Source: Pseudomonas sihuiensis
GTDB lineage: Bacteria > Pseudomonadota > Gammaproteobacteria > Pseudomonadales > Pseudomonadaceae
Assembly (NCBI RefSeq): GCF_900106015.1
Contig: NZ_LT629797.1
Location: 2,418,001 to 2,482,000, forward strand
Direction: 5' to 3'
DNA: 64,000 nt
The first letter of the stretch is position 1, and every line of letters starts with the position of its first letter. The notes under the pieces were generated by a model, which saw only the letters and a program-made list of their open reading frames with translations, made no database searches and had not been told where the DNA came from. Shown here one piece after another: positions 35,214-51,203 of the stretch. The position numbers and the translations under genes are program-made.

Positions 35214-35321
35214 GCAGCCTGTCGGCCTGGGCGAAAATACTGGCACTTTGCTCAGGAATGCCCCTTGCCATTAGCGGTCAAAGCTCTGCATGCTTGTTCC
35301 ATAACAACGAAAAGAAATGCT

Positions 35322-36368
35322 ATGGCTACCCAGACCGCTCGTATGCTGAAGCGCCTGCGCAACGATTTCCAGCTATCGATCATCACCCTGATGGGGCTGT
35401 TCGGGGTCATCGGCATCTCGCCTTATGCCGTCTACCGGCTGCTAAACGGCAACTACCTGGTCGGCATCGCCGACACCGTCATCGTCTTTTCCACACTGTT
35501 CGCCGTGCTCTATGCCTGGGTCACTCGCGACACGGTCAAGCCCGGTATCTACCTGGCGGCCGTGTTCTCTGTCGGCGCCACGCTGATCGCCATCAACCTG
35601 GGGGTCAACGGCCTGTTCTGGATCTATCCGCTGATCCTCTTCAACTTCTTCATGGTCACCCCCGGCAAGGCCCTGCTGGCCACTGCGCTGGTGCTGGTCA
35701 GCCTGGTCAGCCACGCTCTGCTGGTACCTGGCAGCGTGTTCGAAAGCCACTACCAGATGGTGTCGTTCCTGGTCACCTGCATGATGGCCAGCGTGCTCAG
35801 CTTCATCTTCGCCTTCCGCACCCGCAACCAGCGCGATCAGCTGCAATCGCTGGCCATTCATGACCCGCTGACCGGCGCACGCAACCGCCGGGCGATGAAC
35901 GAAGAACTGAAGATCGCCATGGCCAGCCATCGCCGCCACAGCGACAGCTACGGCTTGCTGGTGATGGATCTGGATCACTTCAAACAGATCAACGACCGCT
36001 TCGGTCATCACGTCGGCGACCAGGTGCTGGTGGCCTTCGTCGAGCTGATCAAGCGCTGCTCACGCAAGGAAGATCGCTTGTTCCGCTTTGGTGGCGAGGA
36101 GTTTCTCCTGCTGCTGCCCAACACCGAGCTGACGGGCCTGCAGGCCGCGGCGCAGAATCTGCTCAGTTGGGTGGCGCAGGAGCTCAAAAGCCCAGGCGGC
36201 GCGGTGACCGTCTCGATCGGCGGCGCCATTCTGCACAGTGGCGAGCACTGGGAAGGCTGGCTGCAGCGCGCCGATGAATGCCTGTATCGCGCCAAGAGCG
36301 AGGGGCGCAATCGCGCAGTGATCGCCGATGCCCCGAGCGGCCCAAACAAGACTGCCGCTAGCCACTGA
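35322..36368 (+). CDS. Membrane-bound GGDEF diguanylate cyclase
   Basis: A 348-residue protein with about six N-terminal membrane helices, including GISPYAVYRLLNG and LILFNFFMVTPGKALLATAL, forming a MASE-like sensor. The GGDEF domain has DPLTGARNRRAM, LLVMDLDHFKQINDRFGHHV and FGGEEF with the inhibitory site RKED five residues before. The ATG at 35322 follows an AAAGAAATGC sequence; no strong ribosome site is present. Confidence 0.93.
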   Translation: MATQTARMLKRLRNDFQLSIITLMGLFGVIGISPYAVYRLLNGNYLVGIADTVIVFSTLFAVLYAWVTRDTVKPGIYLAAVFSVGATLIAINLGVNGLFWIYPLILFNFFMVTPGKALLATALVLVSLVSHALLVPGSVFESHYQMVSFLVTCMMASVLSFIFAFRTRNQRDQLQSLAIHDPLTGARNRRAMNEELKIAMASHRRHSDSYGLLVMDLDHFKQINDRFGHHVGDQVLVAFVELIKRCSRKEDRLFRFGGEEFLLLLPNTELTGLQAAAQNLLSWVAQELKSPGGAVTVSIGGAILHSGEHWEGWLQRADECLYRAKSEGRNRAVIADAPSGPNKTAASH

Positions 36369-41367: not shown

Positions 41368-41651
41368 GGCTGACAGCGCGCCCTGCCTCCGAAGTGCACC
41401 CGGCGCCCCTTCTCCCATGGGGCGCCCTCTCTCCTACCGCCCCCAGCAGCGCACTGCCTGGGGCGAGTACGCCCTGTGCAGGGCAGTACCACTGCCATTC
41501 GCCTGCTTATGCGCAGCGCGAAGCTGCTCAGCCAAAGCAGCTCATATCTGTGAGGAATAAGGCAAAGTACTTTTTTCCGTGCTAGAACCTATGGGGTTGG
41601 TCATTTTATGGCCAATGGCCAATACCCCACTGACTCGCCGGACTGTCACTG

Positions 41652-43823
41652 ATGAAAACTAAAAAAGACGCCGTAGCCCCCGCAAAGGAAGCCACCCTGG
41701 CCGATATCGCCGACAACCTGCTGGCACCGCCCGCGCTGCCGGGGCACAGCGTTAGCGGCGAGCAGTATCTGTATTTCACCGAACGCGATATCGAGCGCAT
41801 CCTCGATAACCTCGATGGCCTGCGCAACATGGTGTTCCCGCTGGGCGAGCCGCTGGACGAAGGCGAGTCGAGCCGTATCCAGCAATTTCCTTCGGTGTGC
41901 CTGATCGGCCTTGGCCGCTGCGGCTCGAACATCGCCCTGGACGTCGCCTCCCTGGTCTACAACGCGCGCCAGTTCTATCTGGAAGAGTTTCACAGCGAAG
42001 CCACTGCCACCATCGAGCAGGCCTCACGCCCCAGCCGCTGGATTCGCAGCAACCTGCTGCGCGCGCCGCGCAAGAGCAGCAAACCGGTATTCCTGATCGA
42101 GCCGCTGGTGATGCTCGGCGACCTGGACAAGGACATCGCCGGGCGCATCCGCTTCTCGCGCAAGGGCGAGATGAGTGGGTTTCTCGACGATTACAGCAAG
42201 ATGAAGATCATGGACCTGTCCGAGGTGCATGCCGGCGGTGCCGGCAACGCGCCGATCCTTGGTCAGTATCTGGCCAAGATCATCCTCAACAAGGACACCC
42301 AGCGCTTCTCCAACGAAGACTGGAAGTTCATCCACAGCTACCTGATCGACTCCTGCGGGATCAAGGCCAACCAATCGCGCTTGTACTTCTATATCTTCAG
42401 CGCCGGCGGCGGCACCGGCTCGGGCATGGCCTCGGAGTTCGGCCTGGCGCAGCAGTTCGCCTACATGAGCAAGACCTTCGATAGCAAAACGCCGGACGAT
42501 GGCGAGGCCGAGCGCGAACGTGGTTTCGTCTTCGAACCGATCTTCACCAGCGGCATCTGCATCCTGCCGAACATTTCCGACCAGCGCAGCGAGATGTCCG
42601 AAGCCCTGCACATCAATGCCGGACGCCTGCTGTGCAAGTACCTGGCCGAGGAATGGGACTTCTCCTACAACTTCGACAACGAGCAGAACAGTGCCGAAAG
42701 CGTGATGCGCCGCATCCGCCCGTGGAACGCGATGATGCTCATTTCCAACGACATCATGCGTTACGCCGAGGAAAGCGGTGACGGCAGCATCCACAACATC
42801 GACGTGACCGCCATGGAGCGCCACGCCAACCAGTACATCTCGCAGCAGATCTTCAACATCCTCACTGCCCAGGCGGTGACCAGCGACTACGACCAGAACT
42901 ACTTCCGCCGCGCCGGCATCGACATCGGCGAGACCATCCGCCTCGACGCCAACGACCTGTTCATGAGCCTGGCCGGCCCAGTGGCCGTGGCTTATGCCGA
43001 ATCCGTGGTGCCCGAACAGCATGCCCAGCTGTCGGAGAAATTCCGCGTACTGGACAAGGAACAGAGCCCGCCGCGGCTGAACATCGACGACCTGTTCTTC
43101 CGCTCCATCGACCTGCCGCACTTCAACAAGGTCACCCAGGCCATCGAAGGCATCAGCCTGCTGCCGATCGAGTCCAAGCGCTATCGCCAGGCGCTGGAGC
43201 AATACAAGTCCAGCGGCTACGACGCCACGCAACTGAGCGACCTGCATTTCTTCAAGAACTGCTCCTCGGTGGTGTCCATCGTCTCGCTGCCCAAGGACTA
43301 CAAGCTGTCCTACATGGACCTGAACCGCCTCAAGACCCACCTCAACAACCTCTTCCCCAACACCACGCTCAAGCGCTACGCGCTGGTGATCGGCGCCTCG
43401 GCCAACCTCTCGCTGACCACCCTGATCGTCAAGAGCCCGTGCCTGTCGGACGACTTCCTGACCCTGATCGTCGCCTACATCAAGCGCTGCTTCGCCCGCG
43501 ACCAGTACCGTTTCGACGACAGCCTGGACGACGCCATGCTCGACTTCATCGTCTCCGAGCGCTTCAACGAAGCGCAGCTCGACGCCATGCTCAACGAGCA
43601 CGAAGACCCGGCGAAGATCCTCGACACCAACTGGTATGCGATCAAACCGATGTACGAGAAGAAGTACCGCGAGCTGATCCACGACGCCGAGAAGTTCGTC
43701 TCGATCAACGACATCCGACTGACACGCGAAAGCGTCAAACAGGCGATCAAGTACCTGCGCGAAATCTATCGCCACCGCATCGGCAAGACCCGGGTGATCT
43801 CACTCAACGATTACGGAAAATAG
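41652..43823 (+). CDS. Tubulin/FtsZ-superfamily protein of uncharacterised family (723 aa)
   Basis: The core has tubulin-fold GTPase elements in the right order: T1-like GLGRCGSNIALDV (residues 86-98), T3-like HAGGAGNAP (193-201), the exact G-box AGGGTGSG (251-258; codons 42402-42425), a base-contacting SND (365-367) after a beta-strand, a long H7-like helix (about 386-408), and a T7-like RLDAND (430-435) with two acids in the positions of the catalytic FtsZ loop, though its first Asn is Arg. It is about twice FtsZ size, with an 80-residue N-terminal extension, inserts and a ~280-residue unassigned C-terminal region. No membrane helix or FtsZ-type C-terminal peptide is seen. A weak ribosome site precedes the ATG. 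A MHYT-GGDEF-EAL gene follows 66 bp downstream. Confidence 0.85.
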   Translation: MKTKKDAVAPAKEATLADIADNLLAPPALPGHSVSGEQYLYFTERDIERILDNLDGLRNMVFPLGEPLDEGESSRIQQFPSVCLIGLGRCGSNIALDVASLVYNARQFYLEEFHSEATATIEQASRPSRWIRSNLLRAPRKSSKPVFLIEPLVMLGDLDKDIAGRIRFSRKGEMSGFLDDYSKMKIMDLSEVHAGGAGNAPILGQYLAKIILNKDTQRFSNEDWKFIHSYLIDSCGIKANQSRLYFYIFSAGGGTGSGMASEFGLAQQFAYMSKTFDSKTPDDGEAERERGFVFEPIFTSGICILPNISDQRSEMSEALHINAGRLLCKYLAEEWDFSYNFDNEQNSAESVMRRIRPWNAMMLISNDIMRYAEESGDGSIHNIDVTAMERHANQYISQQIFNILTAQAVTSDYDQNYFRRAGIDIGETIRLDANDLFMSLAGPVAVAYAESVVPEQHAQLSEKFRVLDKEQSPPRLNIDDLFFRSIDLPHFNKVTQAIEGISLLPIESKRYRQALEQYKSSGYDATQLSDLHFFKNCSSVVSIVSLPKDYKLSYMDLNRLKTHLNNLFPNTTLKRYALVIGASANLSLTTLIVKSPCLSDDFLTLIVAYIKRCFARDQYRFDDSLDDAMLDFIVSERFNEAQLDAMLNEHEDPAKILDTNWYAIKPMYEKKYRELIHDAEKFVSINDIRLTRESVKQAIKYLREIYRHRIGKTRVISLNDYGK

Positions 43824-43889
43824 GTGGTACGGGCGTGCCTGTGCTTCACTGACTAGGGCACTCATACTGCCGCAAAGCGGGAGATGGCT

Positions 43890-46070
43890 ATGGAAGGACT
43901 GTCGATCCGCTTTCTCGCCGACCTACCCGAGCAGGGCCAGCTCCTGCTCAATTGCGAACACGACCCCTGGCTGGTGGCACTGTCCTACGTCATCGCCAGC
44001 GTCGGCAGCCTCAGCACGCTGACCATCGCCAGGCACCTCGATAACGTCCTGAGGCGCAGCATGCGTCTGGTCTGGGGGCTGCTCGGCGGGCTGTGCCTGG
44101 CCGGCGCCATCTGGTCCATGCACTTCATCGGCATGCTGGCCTTCCAGGCGCCTGTCGCCATTCGCTATGACCTCGCCACCACCGTGCTGTCGCTGCTGGT
44201 GGCCCTGGCCGCCTCACTCCTCGCCGTGTACTACATGGCCATGCCGCGTCCCGGCCTGAGCCGCCAGTTGCTGGCCGCCAGCATCATCGGCCTGGGTATC
44301 AGCGCCATGCACTACAGCGGGATGGCGGCGATCCGCTCGGAGGCTCAGGCCTACTACCACGGCGGCCTGTTCACCCTCTCCATCGTCATCGCCATCAGTG
44401 CCAGCTTCGCCGCGCTGCTGCTCAACCGCTACGTGCGCCACGGCTCGCAGCTTCGCCAACGCTGGATGAAGTATTCGGCGGCGCTGGTCATGGGCGCGGC
44501 GATCGCCTCGATGCACTACACCGGCATGGCCGCGCTCAACCTGGTGGTAGCGGACGGCACGCCGCTGCAGTTGCGCAGCGCCGACAACAGCGTGCAACTG
44601 GTGCTGATCGTCGCCTCCATCACCTTGCTGATTCTCAGCCTGAGCCTGGCCGCAGCCTGGATCGGCCGCAAGCTCGACGACAAGGAGCGCGACCTGCAAC
44701 GGGTCAATACCCTGCTGGTGCAGCTCGATCAGGCCAAGGCATCGCTGGAGCAGGTGGCGCATTTCGATCCACTGACCGAGCTGCTCAACCGTCGCGGCTT
44801 CAACCGGGTGTTCGCCGCCACCCTGGAGGAACACGCGGTGACCGGCCGCAGCCTGGCGGTGATGTTCCTCGATGTCGATCACTTCAAACGCATCAATGAC
44901 AGCCTTGGTCACGACGCTGGCGACGAGTTGCTGCGTGTGGTGGCACAGCGCATCCGCAGCGCGTTACGTGAGCGCGACATCATCGCGCGCTTCGGTGGCG
45001 ACGAATTCTGCGTGGTCGCCAGCCTCGACAGCAACGCCGACCCACGCGCGCTGGCCGCACGCATGCTGGAGCACATGAAGGAGCCGATCAGCTTTGCCGG
45101 ACGCAAGATCGTGATGACCACCAGCGTCGGCATCAGCCTGCTCCCCCAGGATGGCGGCAACGCCGACGAGTTGCTCAAGCATGCCGATCTGGCGCTGTAT
45201 CAATCCAAGGGCAGCGGGCGCAACGTGGTGCATTTCTTCAATCCGCACCTGAAGCAGAAGGCCTCGTTCGAGCTGCAACTGGAAGAAGACCTGCGCCAGG
45301 CCCTGCAGCAGGACAGCGGCCTGACCCTGTTCTATCAACCGATCATCGATCTGCGCAGCGGCGCGCTGAGCAAACTCGAAGCCCTGGTACGCTGGCATCA
45401 TCCGCAGCACGGCCTGCTGACACCCGAGCGCTTCATCGCCATCGCCGAAGCCAACGGTTTCATCGATCAGCTCGACAACTGGGTGCTGCGCCGCGCCTGT
45501 CTCGACCTCAACAGCCTGGATCAAATGGGTTATCCGGGGTTGAAGATCGCGGTCAACTGCTCGGCGCTGAACCTGGCCAACGATCAGTTGCCTGGCCGCA
45601 TCGAGCAGTTGTTGAACGCGACGCGCTGCCCTGCTCACTGCCTGGAGCTGGAGGTGACCGAGAGCGCGCTACTGAGCAACATCAATCGCGCCATCGGCCT
45701 GCTGGAAAACATTCGCGCGCTGGGCGTCAGCCTGTCCATCGACGACTTCGGCACCGGTTATTCCTCGCTCGCCTACCTGCGCCGCCTACCTCTGGATACG
45801 CTGAAGGTCGACCGCTCCTTCATTCAGGACGTGGCCCACTCCAGTCAGGACCGCGAGATCGTCCACGCCATCATCGCCATGGCCCACGCCCTGCATCTGA
45901 AGGTCGTCGCCGAAGGCGTGGAAACCGCCGAGCAGCTGGCGTTCCTTCAGGAACGCGACTGCGATCAGGTGCAGGGCTATCTGTTCAGCAAACCGGTACC
46001 GCTGGAGGAAATCCTGGCCCGCTTCCCGCCGCATTACCGGCCGCTGGAACGGGTAGCGGCAAGGTCTTGA
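43890..46070 (+). CDS. MHYT-GGDEF-EAL cyclic-di-GMP regulator (MucR-like)
   Basis: A 726-residue inner-membrane protein. The MHYT sensor (residues 25-260) has seven membrane helices and three motifs: MHFIGM, MHYSGM and MHYTGM, proposed to bind copper and sense oxygen, CO or NO. The GGDEF domain has VMFLDVDHFKRINDSLGHDA, an RERD inhibitory site and FGGDEF. The EAL domain has KLEALVRWHHP, DDFGTGYSSLAYLR and EGVETAEQL, with metal-binding acids intact. Architecture matches MucR, which links c-di-GMP to alginate and biofilm dispersal in P. aeruginosa. The ATG at 43890 is chosen because GGGAG lies six bases upstream; the one at 43884 is too close. It may be co-transcribed with the tubulin-like gene. 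Confidence 0.94.
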   Translation: MEGLSIRFLADLPEQGQLLLNCEHDPWLVALSYVIASVGSLSTLTIARHLDNVLRRSMRLVWGLLGGLCLAGAIWSMHFIGMLAFQAPVAIRYDLATTVLSLLVALAASLLAVYYMAMPRPGLSRQLLAASIIGLGISAMHYSGMAAIRSEAQAYYHGGLFTLSIVIAISASFAALLLNRYVRHGSQLRQRWMKYSAALVMGAAIASMHYTGMAALNLVVADGTPLQLRSADNSVQLVLIVASITLLILSLSLAAAWIGRKLDDKERDLQRVNTLLVQLDQAKASLEQVAHFDPLTELLNRRGFNRVFAATLEEHAVTGRSLAVMFLDVDHFKRINDSLGHDAGDELLRVVAQRIRSALRERDIIARFGGDEFCVVASLDSNADPRALAARMLEHMKEPISFAGRKIVMTTSVGISLLPQDGGNADELLKHADLALYQSKGSGRNVVHFFNPHLKQKASFELQLEEDLRQALQQDSGLTLFYQPIIDLRSGALSKLEALVRWHHPQHGLLTPERFIAIAEANGFIDQLDNWVLRRACLDLNSLDQMGYPGLKIAVNCSALNLANDQLPGRIEQLLNATRCPAHCLELEVTESALLSNINRAIGLLENIRALGVSLSIDDFGTGYSSLAYLRRLPLDTLKVDRSFIQDVAHSSQDREIVHAIIAMAHALHLKVVAEGVETAEQLAFLQERDCDQVQGYLFSKPVPLEEILARFPPHYRPLERVAARS

Positions 46071-47975: not shown

Positions 47976-48827
47976 ATGTTCAAGAACACCCTGGCGCTCG
48001 CCGCCGGCATCGCCCTGTCTGTATCTGCTGTATTCGCGCAAGCCGCCGACGTCCTCAAGGTCTCGGCCATTCCTGACGAAGCCCCCACCGAACTGCTGCG
48101 CAAGTTCAAGCCGCTGGGCGCCTACCTGGAACAGGAACTGGGCATGAAGGTGGAGTTCGTGCCAGTGGCCGACTACGCAGCCGTGGTCGAGGCGCTGGCC
48201 GCTGACCGTATCGACATGGCCTGGCTCGGCGGTTTCACCTTCGTCCAGGCACGCCTGAAAACCGGCAACGCCGTGCCGCTGGTGCAGCGCGAGCAGGACG
48301 CCGAGTTCACCAGCAAATTCATCACCTCCGACCCGGCGGTGAAGTCCCTGCAGGATCTGAAAGGCAAGACCTTCGCCTTCGGCTCGGTGTCCTCCACTTC
48401 CGGCAGCCTGATGCCGCGCTACTTCATGCTGCAGGACGGCATCAAGCCGGAAGACTTCTTCAGCCGCGTGGCCTACTCCGGTGCTCACGACGCCACCGCC
48501 GCCTGGGTACAGGCCGGCAAGGCCGATGCCGGTGTGCTCAACGCCTCGGTGTGGCAGAAACTGGTGGACGCCGGCAAGGTCGACACCGACAAGGTCAAGG
48601 TCTTCGCCACCACCCCGACCTACTACGACTACAACTGGACCGTGCGCGGCAACCTCGACGCCGACCTGCAGGCGAAGATCAAGGCCGCCTTCCTCGCCCT
48701 CGACCCGGCCAAGCCCGAGCAAAAGGCGATTCTCGACCTGCAGGCCGCCAGCCGCTTTATCGAGACCAAGCCCGAGAACTACGAAGGCATCGAAGAAGCC
48801 GCTCGCGCTGCCGGCCTGTTGAAGTGA
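47976..48827 (+). CDS. PhnD-like ABC transporter solute-binding protein (selenate/phosphonate type)
   Basis: A 283-residue protein with a signal peptide ([17 protein letters not shown]) and a PhnD-type fold: [57 protein letters not shown] and [20 protein letters not shown]. In pseudomonads this group is often labelled putative selenate ABC transporter binding protein; the true ligand is an oxyanion not settled by sequence. First gene of a four-gene importer operon with overlapping ends. CCGGAGA precedes the ATG. Confidence 0.87.
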
Positions 48828-49624
48828 GCATCGCCCTGCGTGGCGTGGGCCTGGCCCACGCCAACGGCAAGGTCGCGCTGGAAAACATCGATCTGCAGGT
48901 CAGCCCCGGTGAACGAGTGGCGATCATCGGCCCCTCGGGCGCCGGCAAGACCACCCTGCTGCGCCTGCTGGCCACCAGCCTGCAACCCACACGCGGCGAG
49001 CTCGACCTGCTGCAGCACAACCCCTGGCGTCTGGCTGCCCGCCAGCGCCAACGCCTGCGTGCGCGCATCGGCCTGATCCACCAGGCACCGCCTTTGCCAC
49101 CGCGCCAGCGCGTGGTCACCGCCGTGCTGGCCGGCAAGCTTGGCCAGTGGTCATTGGCCAAAGGCCTGCTCAACCTGCTGCATCCGCTGGATGCCAGCGG
49201 TGCCCAGGCCGCCCTGGCGCGGCTGGACATCGCCGACAAGCTCTACCAACGCTGCGATCAGCTCTCTGGCGGCCAATTGCAGCGCGTCGGCATCGCTCGC
49301 GTGCTGTACCAGGCGCCAGAGTTGATCCTCGCCGACGAACCCGTCTCGGCCATGGATCCGGTGCTGGCCGGCCACACCCTGGCCGTGCTCAACCGCGAGG
49401 CCGCCGAGCGCGGCATGACCCTGCTCGCCAGCCTGCACGCCGTCGACCTGGCGCTGGCGCACTTCCCTCGGGTGATCGGCATCCGCGACGGGCGCATCAC
49501 CTTCGACCTGCCGACCGAGCAGGTGCAGCCCGCCCAGTTGCAGGCGCTGTACGCCAACGAGCAGTTGCAGACCACGCCCAGCTCCCCCGTGCCGCCGCAA
49601 CCGACGCATATCCCGCGATGCTGA
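48824..49624 (+). CDS. PhnC-like ABC transporter ATP-binding protein
   Basis: A 266-residue ABC ATPase with Walker [14 protein letters not shown]-loop LIHQAP, signature [13 protein letters not shown], Walker [13 protein letters not shown] and H-loop [11 protein letters not shown]. It starts at GTG 48824, overlapping the stop of the binding-protein gene by 4 nt (GTGA), and ends 7 nt inside the first permease gene, so it is translationally coupled to both. Confidence 0.92.
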
Positions 49625-50445
49625 CCACCGCCCCACGCGACCCCGCCGCCCTGCCGCGCCTGCTGATCACCGTACTGGCGCTGCTGTTGTTGTGGCCGGG
49701 CCTGAGCCTGAGCGAGCTGGACCTGGCCGTGCTGGTCGATGGCGACAACACCCGCGCCATGGGCAACTTCCTCGCCGGCTTCTGGCCGCCTGCGCATGAC
49801 GGCGAATTCCTCGCCCTGCTCGGCCGCGCCACCCTGGAAACCCTGGCCATCGCCACCGCCGGCATGAGCCTAGCGCTGCTGATCGCCGTCCCTGCCGCGC
49901 TGCTGGCCAGCCGTGCGCTGTCGCTGTCGGCCGTGCACCGTGGTGGCCGCCCGGCCTGGTGGGCAAACCTGGCGCGCTGGCCGGTGCGCGGCCTGCTGAT
50001 CTTCCTGCGCAGCGTGCCGGAAATCGTCTGGGCGCTGCTGTTCGTCCGTGCCGTCGGCCTCGGCCCCACTGCCGGTGTACTGGCCATCGCCATCACCTAC
50101 GCCGGCATGCTGGGTAAGGTGTATGCGGAAATCTTCGAGTCAGTCGATGCCCGCCCCACCCGCGCGCTACTGGGTGCCGGCAGCAGCCGCCTAAGCGCCT
50201 TCGCCTACGGCGTGCTACCCAATGCCGCCGGGGAAATGCTCTCCTACACCGTGTACCGCTGGGAGTGCGCCATCCGCGCCTCGGTGGTGATGGGCTTCGT
50301 CGGCGCTGGTGGGCTGGGCCAGCAGATCGACCTATCGCTGCGCATGTTCGCCGGCGGTGAAGTGGCCAGCATGCTGCTCACCTTCCTCTTGCTGGTGCTG
50401 CTGGCCGACCAGTTCAGCCGCCTGCTGCGCGCGAGGCTGACATGA
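49618..50445 (+). CDS. PhnE-like ABC transporter permease 1
   Basis: A 275-residue membrane permease with about six helices. The inner-membrane coupling EAA-like loop is seen in [17 protein letters not shown], followed by [26 protein letters not shown], typical of PhnE. The ATG at 49618 lies inside the end of the ATPase gene, and its stop overlaps permease 2 by 4 nt. Confidence 0.9.
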
Positions 50446-51203
50446 GAGCCGGCAATCTGATCCTGCTCGCTGCCATTCTCGGCGCGGTGGCTGCCTCGTT
50501 CGTCTATCTGGGCATCGACCTCGGCGCCCTGGTCGCCGGCGACAGTCTGGCGCAGATGGGCAAGTACGCCAGCGGCTTCCTGCAGCCGGACTTCTCGGCC
50601 GCACACCTGCAGGCCATCGGCCGTGGCGCGCTGGAAACCCTGGCCATGTCCGCCATCGGCACCCTGCTCGCCGCCCTGCTCGGCCTGGCCCTGGCACTGC
50701 CGGCCGCCGGGCGCTTCGGCGGCGTCGCCCTGCACCTCACACGCCTGCTGCTCAACGCCCTGCGCGCCATCCCCGAACTGGTCTGGGCGGCGCTGATGGT
50801 GCTGGCCGCCGGTCTCGGCCCCAACGCCGGCACCCTCGCCCTGGCCCTGCACACCGCAGGCGTGCTCGGCCGCCTGTTCGCCGAAGCGCTGGAAAACACC
50901 CCACGCGAGCCGGCCGACGCCATCCGCGAAAGCGGCGGCGGACGCATGCTCGCCTTCTGCTACGGCACCCTGCCCGGCGTCTGGCCGCAACTGGTGGCGT
51001 ACACCCTGTACCGCTGGGAGAACAACATCCGCATGGCCAGCGTGCTCGGCTTCGTCGGTGCCGGCGGCCTGGGGCAGATGCTCTACGTGTCGCTCAGCCT
51101 GTTCCAGGAAGCCCAGGCGGCCACGGTGATCCTGGCCATGCTCCTGCTGGTGCTGGCAGTCGATGCTCTGAGTGGCTGGGCGAGGCAGCGCTGGGTGAGC
51201 TGA
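50442..51203 (+). CDS. PhnE-like ABC transporter permease 2
   Basis: A 253-residue permease similar to the first: LNALRAIPELVWAALMVLA, GGGRMLAFCYGTLPGVWPQL, and [25 protein letters not shown]. Two distinct PhnE-type permeases suggest a heterodimeric channel. It ends the operon; no terminator is obvious. Confidence 0.9.
   Translation: MRAGNLILLAAILGAVAASFVYLGIDLGALVAGDSLAQMGKYASGFLQPDFSAAHLQAIGRGALETLAMSAIGTLLAALLGLALALPAAGRFGGVALHLTRLLLNALRAIPELVWAALMVLAAGLGPNAGTLALALHTAGVLGRLFAEALENTPREPADAIRESGGGRMLAFCYGTLPGVWPQLVAYTLYRWENNIRMASVLGFVGAGGLGQMLYVSLSLFQEAQAATVILAMLLLVLAVDALSGWARQRWVS

Follow-up and report, generated by a model that had tools for sequence, protein, structure and literature searches.

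The window analyzed here, a 64,000-nucleotide stretch of the Pseudomonas sihuiensis genome (contig NZ_LT629797.1, positions 2,418,001 to 2,482,000), contains on its forward strand an intact open reading frame (ORF) with an ATG start, 723 codons and no internal stops, present as the sole copy in a host genome of 5.48 Mb assembled as a single contig. The encoded protein of 723 amino acids (aa) almost certainly belongs to FtsZl2, a described family of FtsZ-like proteins, and the gene is followed by one for an enzyme of cyclic di-GMP (c-di-GMP) turnover. The features of the locus are listed below in window coordinates. Conservation counts refer to 100 family rows picked for diversity among the fetched sequences, the window's included; these rows are related and partly near-identical, and therefore measure constraint and not independence. 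'Marinomonas-like' is our guess at the genus of seven family members.

41652-43823 (+): predicted FtsZl2-type tubulin-superfamily GTPase, 723 aa, from the ORF and its translation, presence in 42 of 59 genus genomes, and family features
41652-41771 (+): variable N-terminal tail, residues 1-40, from the alignment; highest nonsynonymous divergence (dN), and largely missing from Marinomonas-like members
41907-41930 (+): T1-type loop GLGRCGSN, residues 86-93, conserved; positions 2-37 of the PF00091 profile match residues 82-116
42231-42254 (+): T3-type loop AGGAGNAP, residues 194-201, from the alignment; hhalign pairs it with the GAG...P stretch of FtsZ, where the reversed control scored equally high
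42405-42425 (+): T4 G-box GGGTGSG, residues 252-258, from sequence and conservation
42744-42752 (+): T6-type SND, residues 365-367, in 100 of 100 rows
42804-42881 (+): H7-like helix, residues 385-410, conserved and helical in both low-confidence models
42939-42956 (+): T7-type loop RLDAND, residues 430-435 (R430, D432, D435), in 100 of 100 rows
43119-43433 (+): candidate tubulin-type C-terminal subdomain, residues 490-594, from the secondary structure predicted where both models score better
43440-43820 (+): mostly helical, conserved C-terminal extension, residues 597-723, from alignment and model; residues 601-723 have no Pfam family
43884-46070 (+): neighbouring MHYT-GGDEF-EAL c-di-GMP enzyme, from Pfam; 60 bp downstream of the 723-aa gene on the same strand

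The ORF is a real gene, because 42 of the 59 Pseudomonas genomes sampled each have it once, as an open frame (78–100% identity), and the ratio of nonsynonymous to synonymous divergence (dN/dS) is low. For the whole protein, dN/dS was 0.01–0.33 in the 10 of 12 comparisons with estimable dS, the other two being saturated; most of the twelve gave their lowest value for the GTPase part, and residues 1-40 showed the highest dN in 11. The nearest named records, from P. chengduensis (two), P. sp. 8O and P. toyotomiensis, match it at 100% over the best protein segment. Long antisense ORFs such as 42024-43775 are shadow frames of the sort that GC-rich genes commonly produce. The N-terminal extension recorded in the initial annotation is present in the 723-aa protein but is not a family trait, varying among members to the point where the seven Marinomonas-like proteins (674–676 aa) begin almost at the core. 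An alignment of upstream regions revealed an TTTTTCCGTGCTAGAA-like stretch kept in closer pseudomonads at 41570-41590 (+), approximately 60–80 bp 5' of the start codon, which is possibly a promoter; no sigma-70 site was found in a promoter scan of the gene.

The motifs keep the order typical of the superfamily, as first described. Residues G88-N93 (GRCGSN), G252-S257, S365-D367 and R430-D435 are identical in every chosen row, and G258, retained in 99, is the only exception in the T1, T4, T6 and T7 cores. The missing first Asn of T7, to which the initial annotation had drawn attention, is a fixed property of the sampled family: all rows carry Arg430 at a position where FtsZ has Asn (T7 of the FtsZ in the same genome reads NVDFAD), and both D432 and D435 are retained, a pattern that argues against a dead GTPase. 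Membership in the tubulin/FtsZ superfamily, also proposed initially, is supported because these motifs are accompanied by weak profile matches. At E≤1 the only Pfam families matching the 723-aa protein were PF13809 (15 bits, cut-off 27) and PF00091 (13.9 bits, cut-off 33), and among 50 chosen family members PF00091 was matched, weakly, by all and PF13809 by 49. Both families ranked top in Pfam scans of the forward GTPase segments of the 723-aa protein and two divergent members, while the reversed segment, used as a control, matched no Pfam family at E≤10. We consider it very probable that the protein adopts a tubulin fold.

Two results weigh against this reading. An hhalign comparison with 31 FtsZ proteins scored 27.1, above the maximum of 19.9 among 30 column-permuted controls, but reversing the alignment gave 27.7, indicating that the FtsZ score is driven by the glycine motifs. 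In addition, two AlphaFold predictions had a mean pLDDT (predicted local distance difference test score) of 43, and for this reason we still infer the fold, the use of GTP and the formation of filaments. The helix at residues 385-410 appeared in both models, with pLDDT below 50 across nearly all of it. The family alignment is tight and too shallow for structure prediction. Residues 490-594, where the models score better, are mixed alpha/beta, running strand-helix-strand-helix-strand-strand, which is the order in the tubulin C-terminal subdomain. A structure search gave no support for a tubulin-type subdomain here, and neither the sequence nor the fold of the region matched FtsZ. The originally noted mismatch between the C-terminal part and FtsZ was borne out, in that hhalign detected no profile similarity to FtsZ in the C-terminal half, and neither PF12327 (FtsZ_C) nor any other Pfam family above its cut-off was found there. 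A PDB sequence search returned nothing significant (best E 0.28), and PADLOC, PHROGs and NCBIfam assigned no family to the 723-aa protein.

FtsZl2 was found by Makarova and Koonin in 2010 through the motif GGGTG(S/T)G, with PFL_1302 of P. fluorescens Pf-5 as the type protein (PMC2875224). In its passages on this family, that paper describes T1, T4, T6, T7 and H7 elements, a mixed alpha/beta C-terminal region, roughly 300 aa long, that has no relatives, and the lack of a coiled coil; it limits the family to Proteobacteria in which normal FtsZ co-occurs, predicts that the proteins form filaments, and reports an HHpred match of PFL_1302 to PF00091 at E 0.0033. The 723-aa protein agrees with this account in its GGGTG(S/T)G motif in a non-FtsZ protein, in T1, T4, T6 and T7 as read from sequence, in coexistence with FtsZ, in its proteobacterial host, and in ending with some 280 aa that have no known relatives, and we saw no feature that excludes membership. 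The one difference is that the same passages report no gene association, whereas we found c-di-GMP enzyme genes adjoining in Pseudomonas, in the Marinomonas-like genus and in one further genus. It is not a new family, as had been suggested at first: the protein agrees with the published FtsZl2, one of the comparisons that the initial annotation itself proposed. Membrane remodelling, another early suggestion, is proposed in the 2010 paper for FtsZl1 and, in the parts bearing on these families, not for FtsZl2, and nothing in our results supports it for the 723-aa protein.

The DNA motif pattern gave four sites in P. protegens FD6, where two lie in real genes, namely FtsZ and an ortholog of the 723-aa protein (79% identity in the best segment), and two sit in frames 36 and 94 codons long. 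The host genome of the window likewise gave four sites, two of them real, and its FtsZ gene is located elsewhere in the genome; FtsZ thus co-occurs in both genomes examined. We take Pf-5 to be P. protegens, and the 723-aa protein is most likely the ortholog of PFL_1302, a step made by way of strain FD6.

Other members of the superfamily are less similar. FtsZ (PF00091 plus PF12327) shares the order of T loops, GGGTG(S/T)G and the Asp-x-x-Asp of T7, but differs from the 723-aa protein, which has Arg at the start of T7, inserts, approximately 130 extra C-terminal residues, a PF00091 score well under the cut-off and no PF12327 match. FtsZl1 corresponds to PF13809 (Tubulin_2), whose members a superfamily study of 2023 classes, where it treats them, as divergent FtsZ-like proteins (PMC9871819). 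The likeness of the 723-aa protein to this family lies in its T3–T4 region, which gives the 15-bit match, and hhalign against three FtsZl1 members aligned just 17 columns around the G-box. Those three, found by a PF13809 search in 3 of 299 genomes of the phylum, are open frames of 1111–1540 aa with AGGTG at the G-box, in contrast to GGGTG in the 723-aa protein, and at E≤1e-5 the same search did not list the 723-aa gene in its own genome. None of the FtsZl1-type operon genes (vWA, kinase, P-loop GTPase, OmpA-type) was found among the window neighbours scanned. TubZ, PhuZ and CetZ are non-division tubulin-superfamily filaments of plasmids, phages or archaea, and the 723-aa gene, by comparison with these general descriptions, is chromosomal.

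Genome searches covered the phylum of the window; the samples of its genus, family, order, class and phylum overlap and each include the window genome. In the wider samples the gene is sparse, with 8 carriers among 119 genomes from 19 genera of the family, 13 among 244 of the order, 2 among 274 of the class and 9 among 398 of the phylum. In the order to which another hit genome, G804, belongs, it was present in 31 of 394 genomes and 12 of 115 genera; 29 of these 31 have open frames of 687–792 aa, five rows flagging one stop that we took as terminal. The other two genomes of this order, G804 (locus L119, about 9730-6839, minus strand) and G1144 (locus L271), have broken copies with stops, a sign that loss of the gene may occur in that order. 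The FtsZl2 proteins of L257 and L264 (family f194, genus g570) group in a quick tree with the Marinomonas-like clade of another order, and may reflect transfer between orders. No match at E≤1e-5 was found among 72,556 plasmid and 50,697 phage records. A mobile or defence element was considered and rejected, as the gene is single-copy, recurs at shared chromosomal places, and has no plasmid, phage or PADLOC match.

Neighbouring genes were called by our own ORF heuristic, based on composition and length, so that errors are possible in small genes and in precise start positions, and contig ends truncate some contexts. GGDEF and EAL calls were made by blastp with few query domains, and Pfam was run on seven enzymes outside the window and on the window's own. 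The 42 gene-bearing Pseudomonas contexts (41 fetched regions plus the window) showed a GGDEF/EAL gene immediately adjacent in 12, one gene further in 20, and none within two genes in 10. All 32 of these neighbours are MHYT-GGDEF-EAL genes on the same strand as the FtsZl2 gene, lying downstream in the window clade and L026 and upstream in the fluorescens and syringae types; they are not independent, and look like one inherited region. In the window no terminator-like site was found in the 60 bp between the two genes, and their co-transcription is possible. A close MHYT enzyme (E under 1e-50) was encoded in 34 of the 42 Pseudomonas genomes with the FtsZl2 gene and in 9 of the 17 without it (Fisher p 0.05, uncorrected for kinship), and in 32 of the 34 genomes with both, the two lie within two genes of each other. 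Because eight gene-bearing genomes have no such enzyme and nine gene-lacking genomes do, neither requires the other.

Loci with other enzyme types, which were picked by similarity, extend this picture. An NMT1-GGDEF gene is downstream of the FtsZl2 gene in L013, L014 and L022 and upstream in L027 and L028; the five proteins share 66–84% identity over more than 510 residues (Pfam was run on two). In the first three of these loci the NMT1-GGDEF cyclase occupies the place held in related species, L026 for example, by the MHYT-GGDEF-EAL enzyme, as though the one had been exchanged for the other. Among seven Marinomonas-like contexts, an Amt-PAS-GGDEF-EAL gene (Pfam on two of five) is downstream in four, upstream in one and absent in two (G588 and G921); the latter have GGDEF frames of 1045 and 1025 codons elsewhere in the genome, possibly the same Amt-type enzyme. 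A TPR-GGDEF gene is upstream in L244, a PAS-GGDEF-EAL gene is two genes away in L112, and a GGDEF gene is third along on the opposite strand in L269 of the G804 order. GGDEF matches numbered 52, 39, 47, 43 and 37 in five genomes of 3.7–5.5 Mb, a share of about 1% of genes assuming approximately 1 kb per gene. An immediate GGDEF neighbour in 3 of 18 sampled genera compares with about 0.4 expected (p ~0.009 at 2.4% per gene, 0.016 at 3%), in a test devised post hoc with the pattern already seen. A quick tree of 76 chosen rows required at least 11 changes among the typed neighbour states, and placed upstream and downstream NMT1-GGDEF cases in separate clades. Against a c-di-GMP link, a co-oriented GGDEF gene within two genes was found in only 1 of 29 genomes of the G804 order. 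A constant operon partner common to the whole family was rejected on this count and because neighbours vary by genus. The pattern is suggestive; it offers a lead in Pseudomonas and in the Marinomonas-like genus but no rule for the family, and even in Pseudomonas we regard a c-di-GMP link as tentative, with the balance tilted against it.

We consider the best explanation, held with somewhat more confidence than doubt, to be a non-division, filament-forming GTPase kept beside ordinary FtsZ. GTP binding, head-to-tail assembly and hydrolysis completed by T7 are established for FtsZ and tubulin, and if the fold is as the motifs indicate, the mechanism follows from the superfamily. GTP would be bound through loops T1–T6, and subunits would assemble head to tail, with T7 of one subunit (D432 and D435, with Arg430 in place of Asn) entering the GTP site of the next and triggering hydrolysis, through which filaments would form and turn over. 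Arg430, present at T7 in every sampled row, is unusual, and it could act in trans. For binding a partner or the membrane, the strongest candidate is the conserved C-terminal extension (residues 597-723), and the task may be a conditional structure other than division, possibly c-di-GMP-controlled where the neighbour encodes such an enzyme. Polymerisation is a prediction that we share with the published account of the family (PMC2875224), and GTP-dependent filaments seem to us moderately probable.

The same features could be read as a GTP-bound switch that forms no polymer, in which Arg430 and the family inserts block stacking and the C-terminal extension reports the nucleotide state to a partner. 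The invariant Arg at T7 position 1, the large inserts and the conserved 127-residue extension are consistent with such a switch, but in known tubulins the T7 aspartates are useful mainly to the adjoining subunit, and their fixation makes us think this rather unlikely. A c-di-GMP effector scaffold, which would be compatible with filaments, would work with a dedicated membrane c-di-GMP enzyme, co-orientation reflecting shared control. Its appeal lies in three enzyme types, each upstream or downstream by species and always on the same strand, in the separate clades of the NMT1-GGDEF arrangements, and in the post hoc excess among genera. The near absence of such neighbours in the G804 order, the Pseudomonas (10 of 42) and Marinomonas-like (2 of 7) contexts that have none, the uncoupled occurrence of gene and MHYT enzyme, and the possibility that the MHYT case is inherited synteny all count against the scaffold, and we judge it unlikely. 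It is conceivable, as a more speculative idea to which we give still less weight, that FtsZl2 forms tubulin-type filaments coupled to c-di-GMP signalling, where lineage-specific sensor enzymes (MHYT, NMT1-type binding protein, ammonium-transporter type) set local c-di-GMP and thereby control assembly, with Arg430 as a trans arginine finger.

Two further explanations appear very improbable. A modulator of FtsZ or the divisome would fit a protein of the same superfamily that is co-present with FtsZ, but presence is patchy (42 of 59), copies are broken in two other genomes, and no known division gene was seen among the subset of neighbours annotated. A glycine-rich nucleotide-binding protein of another fold would account for the low-confidence AlphaFold models and the reversed hhalign control; however, the T loops are correctly ordered, tubulin profiles top the forward scans only, and the 2010 report gives the HHpred match of PFL_1302 to PF00091 (PMC2875224). 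A filament-forming GTPase remains our preferred reading.

A search of the available literature found no experimental or functional work on the FtsZl2 family in the sixteen years since its description. What is new here, for a family known since 2010, is the wide sampling, the fixed Arg-Asp-Asp pattern of T7, and the pattern of c-di-GMP neighbours with its limits. Such strong conservation of a tubulin relative among environmental pseudomonads leads one to expect a visible function, and the neighbouring c-di-GMP enzymes offer the first concrete functional lead. A filament responding to c-di-GMP would, if true, unite two fields, and a negative result would still decide whether the FtsZl2 branch polymerises.

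Two other loci of the window were noted. Another protein of diguanylate cyclase type (GGDEF) is encoded at 35265-36368 (+), approximately 5 kb upstream of the FtsZl2 gene. At 47976-51203 (+) lies an ATP-binding cassette (ABC) transporter set; its binding protein scores above the cut-off of the NCBIfam model TIGR04553, of putative selenate type (381.5 bits, cut-off 250).
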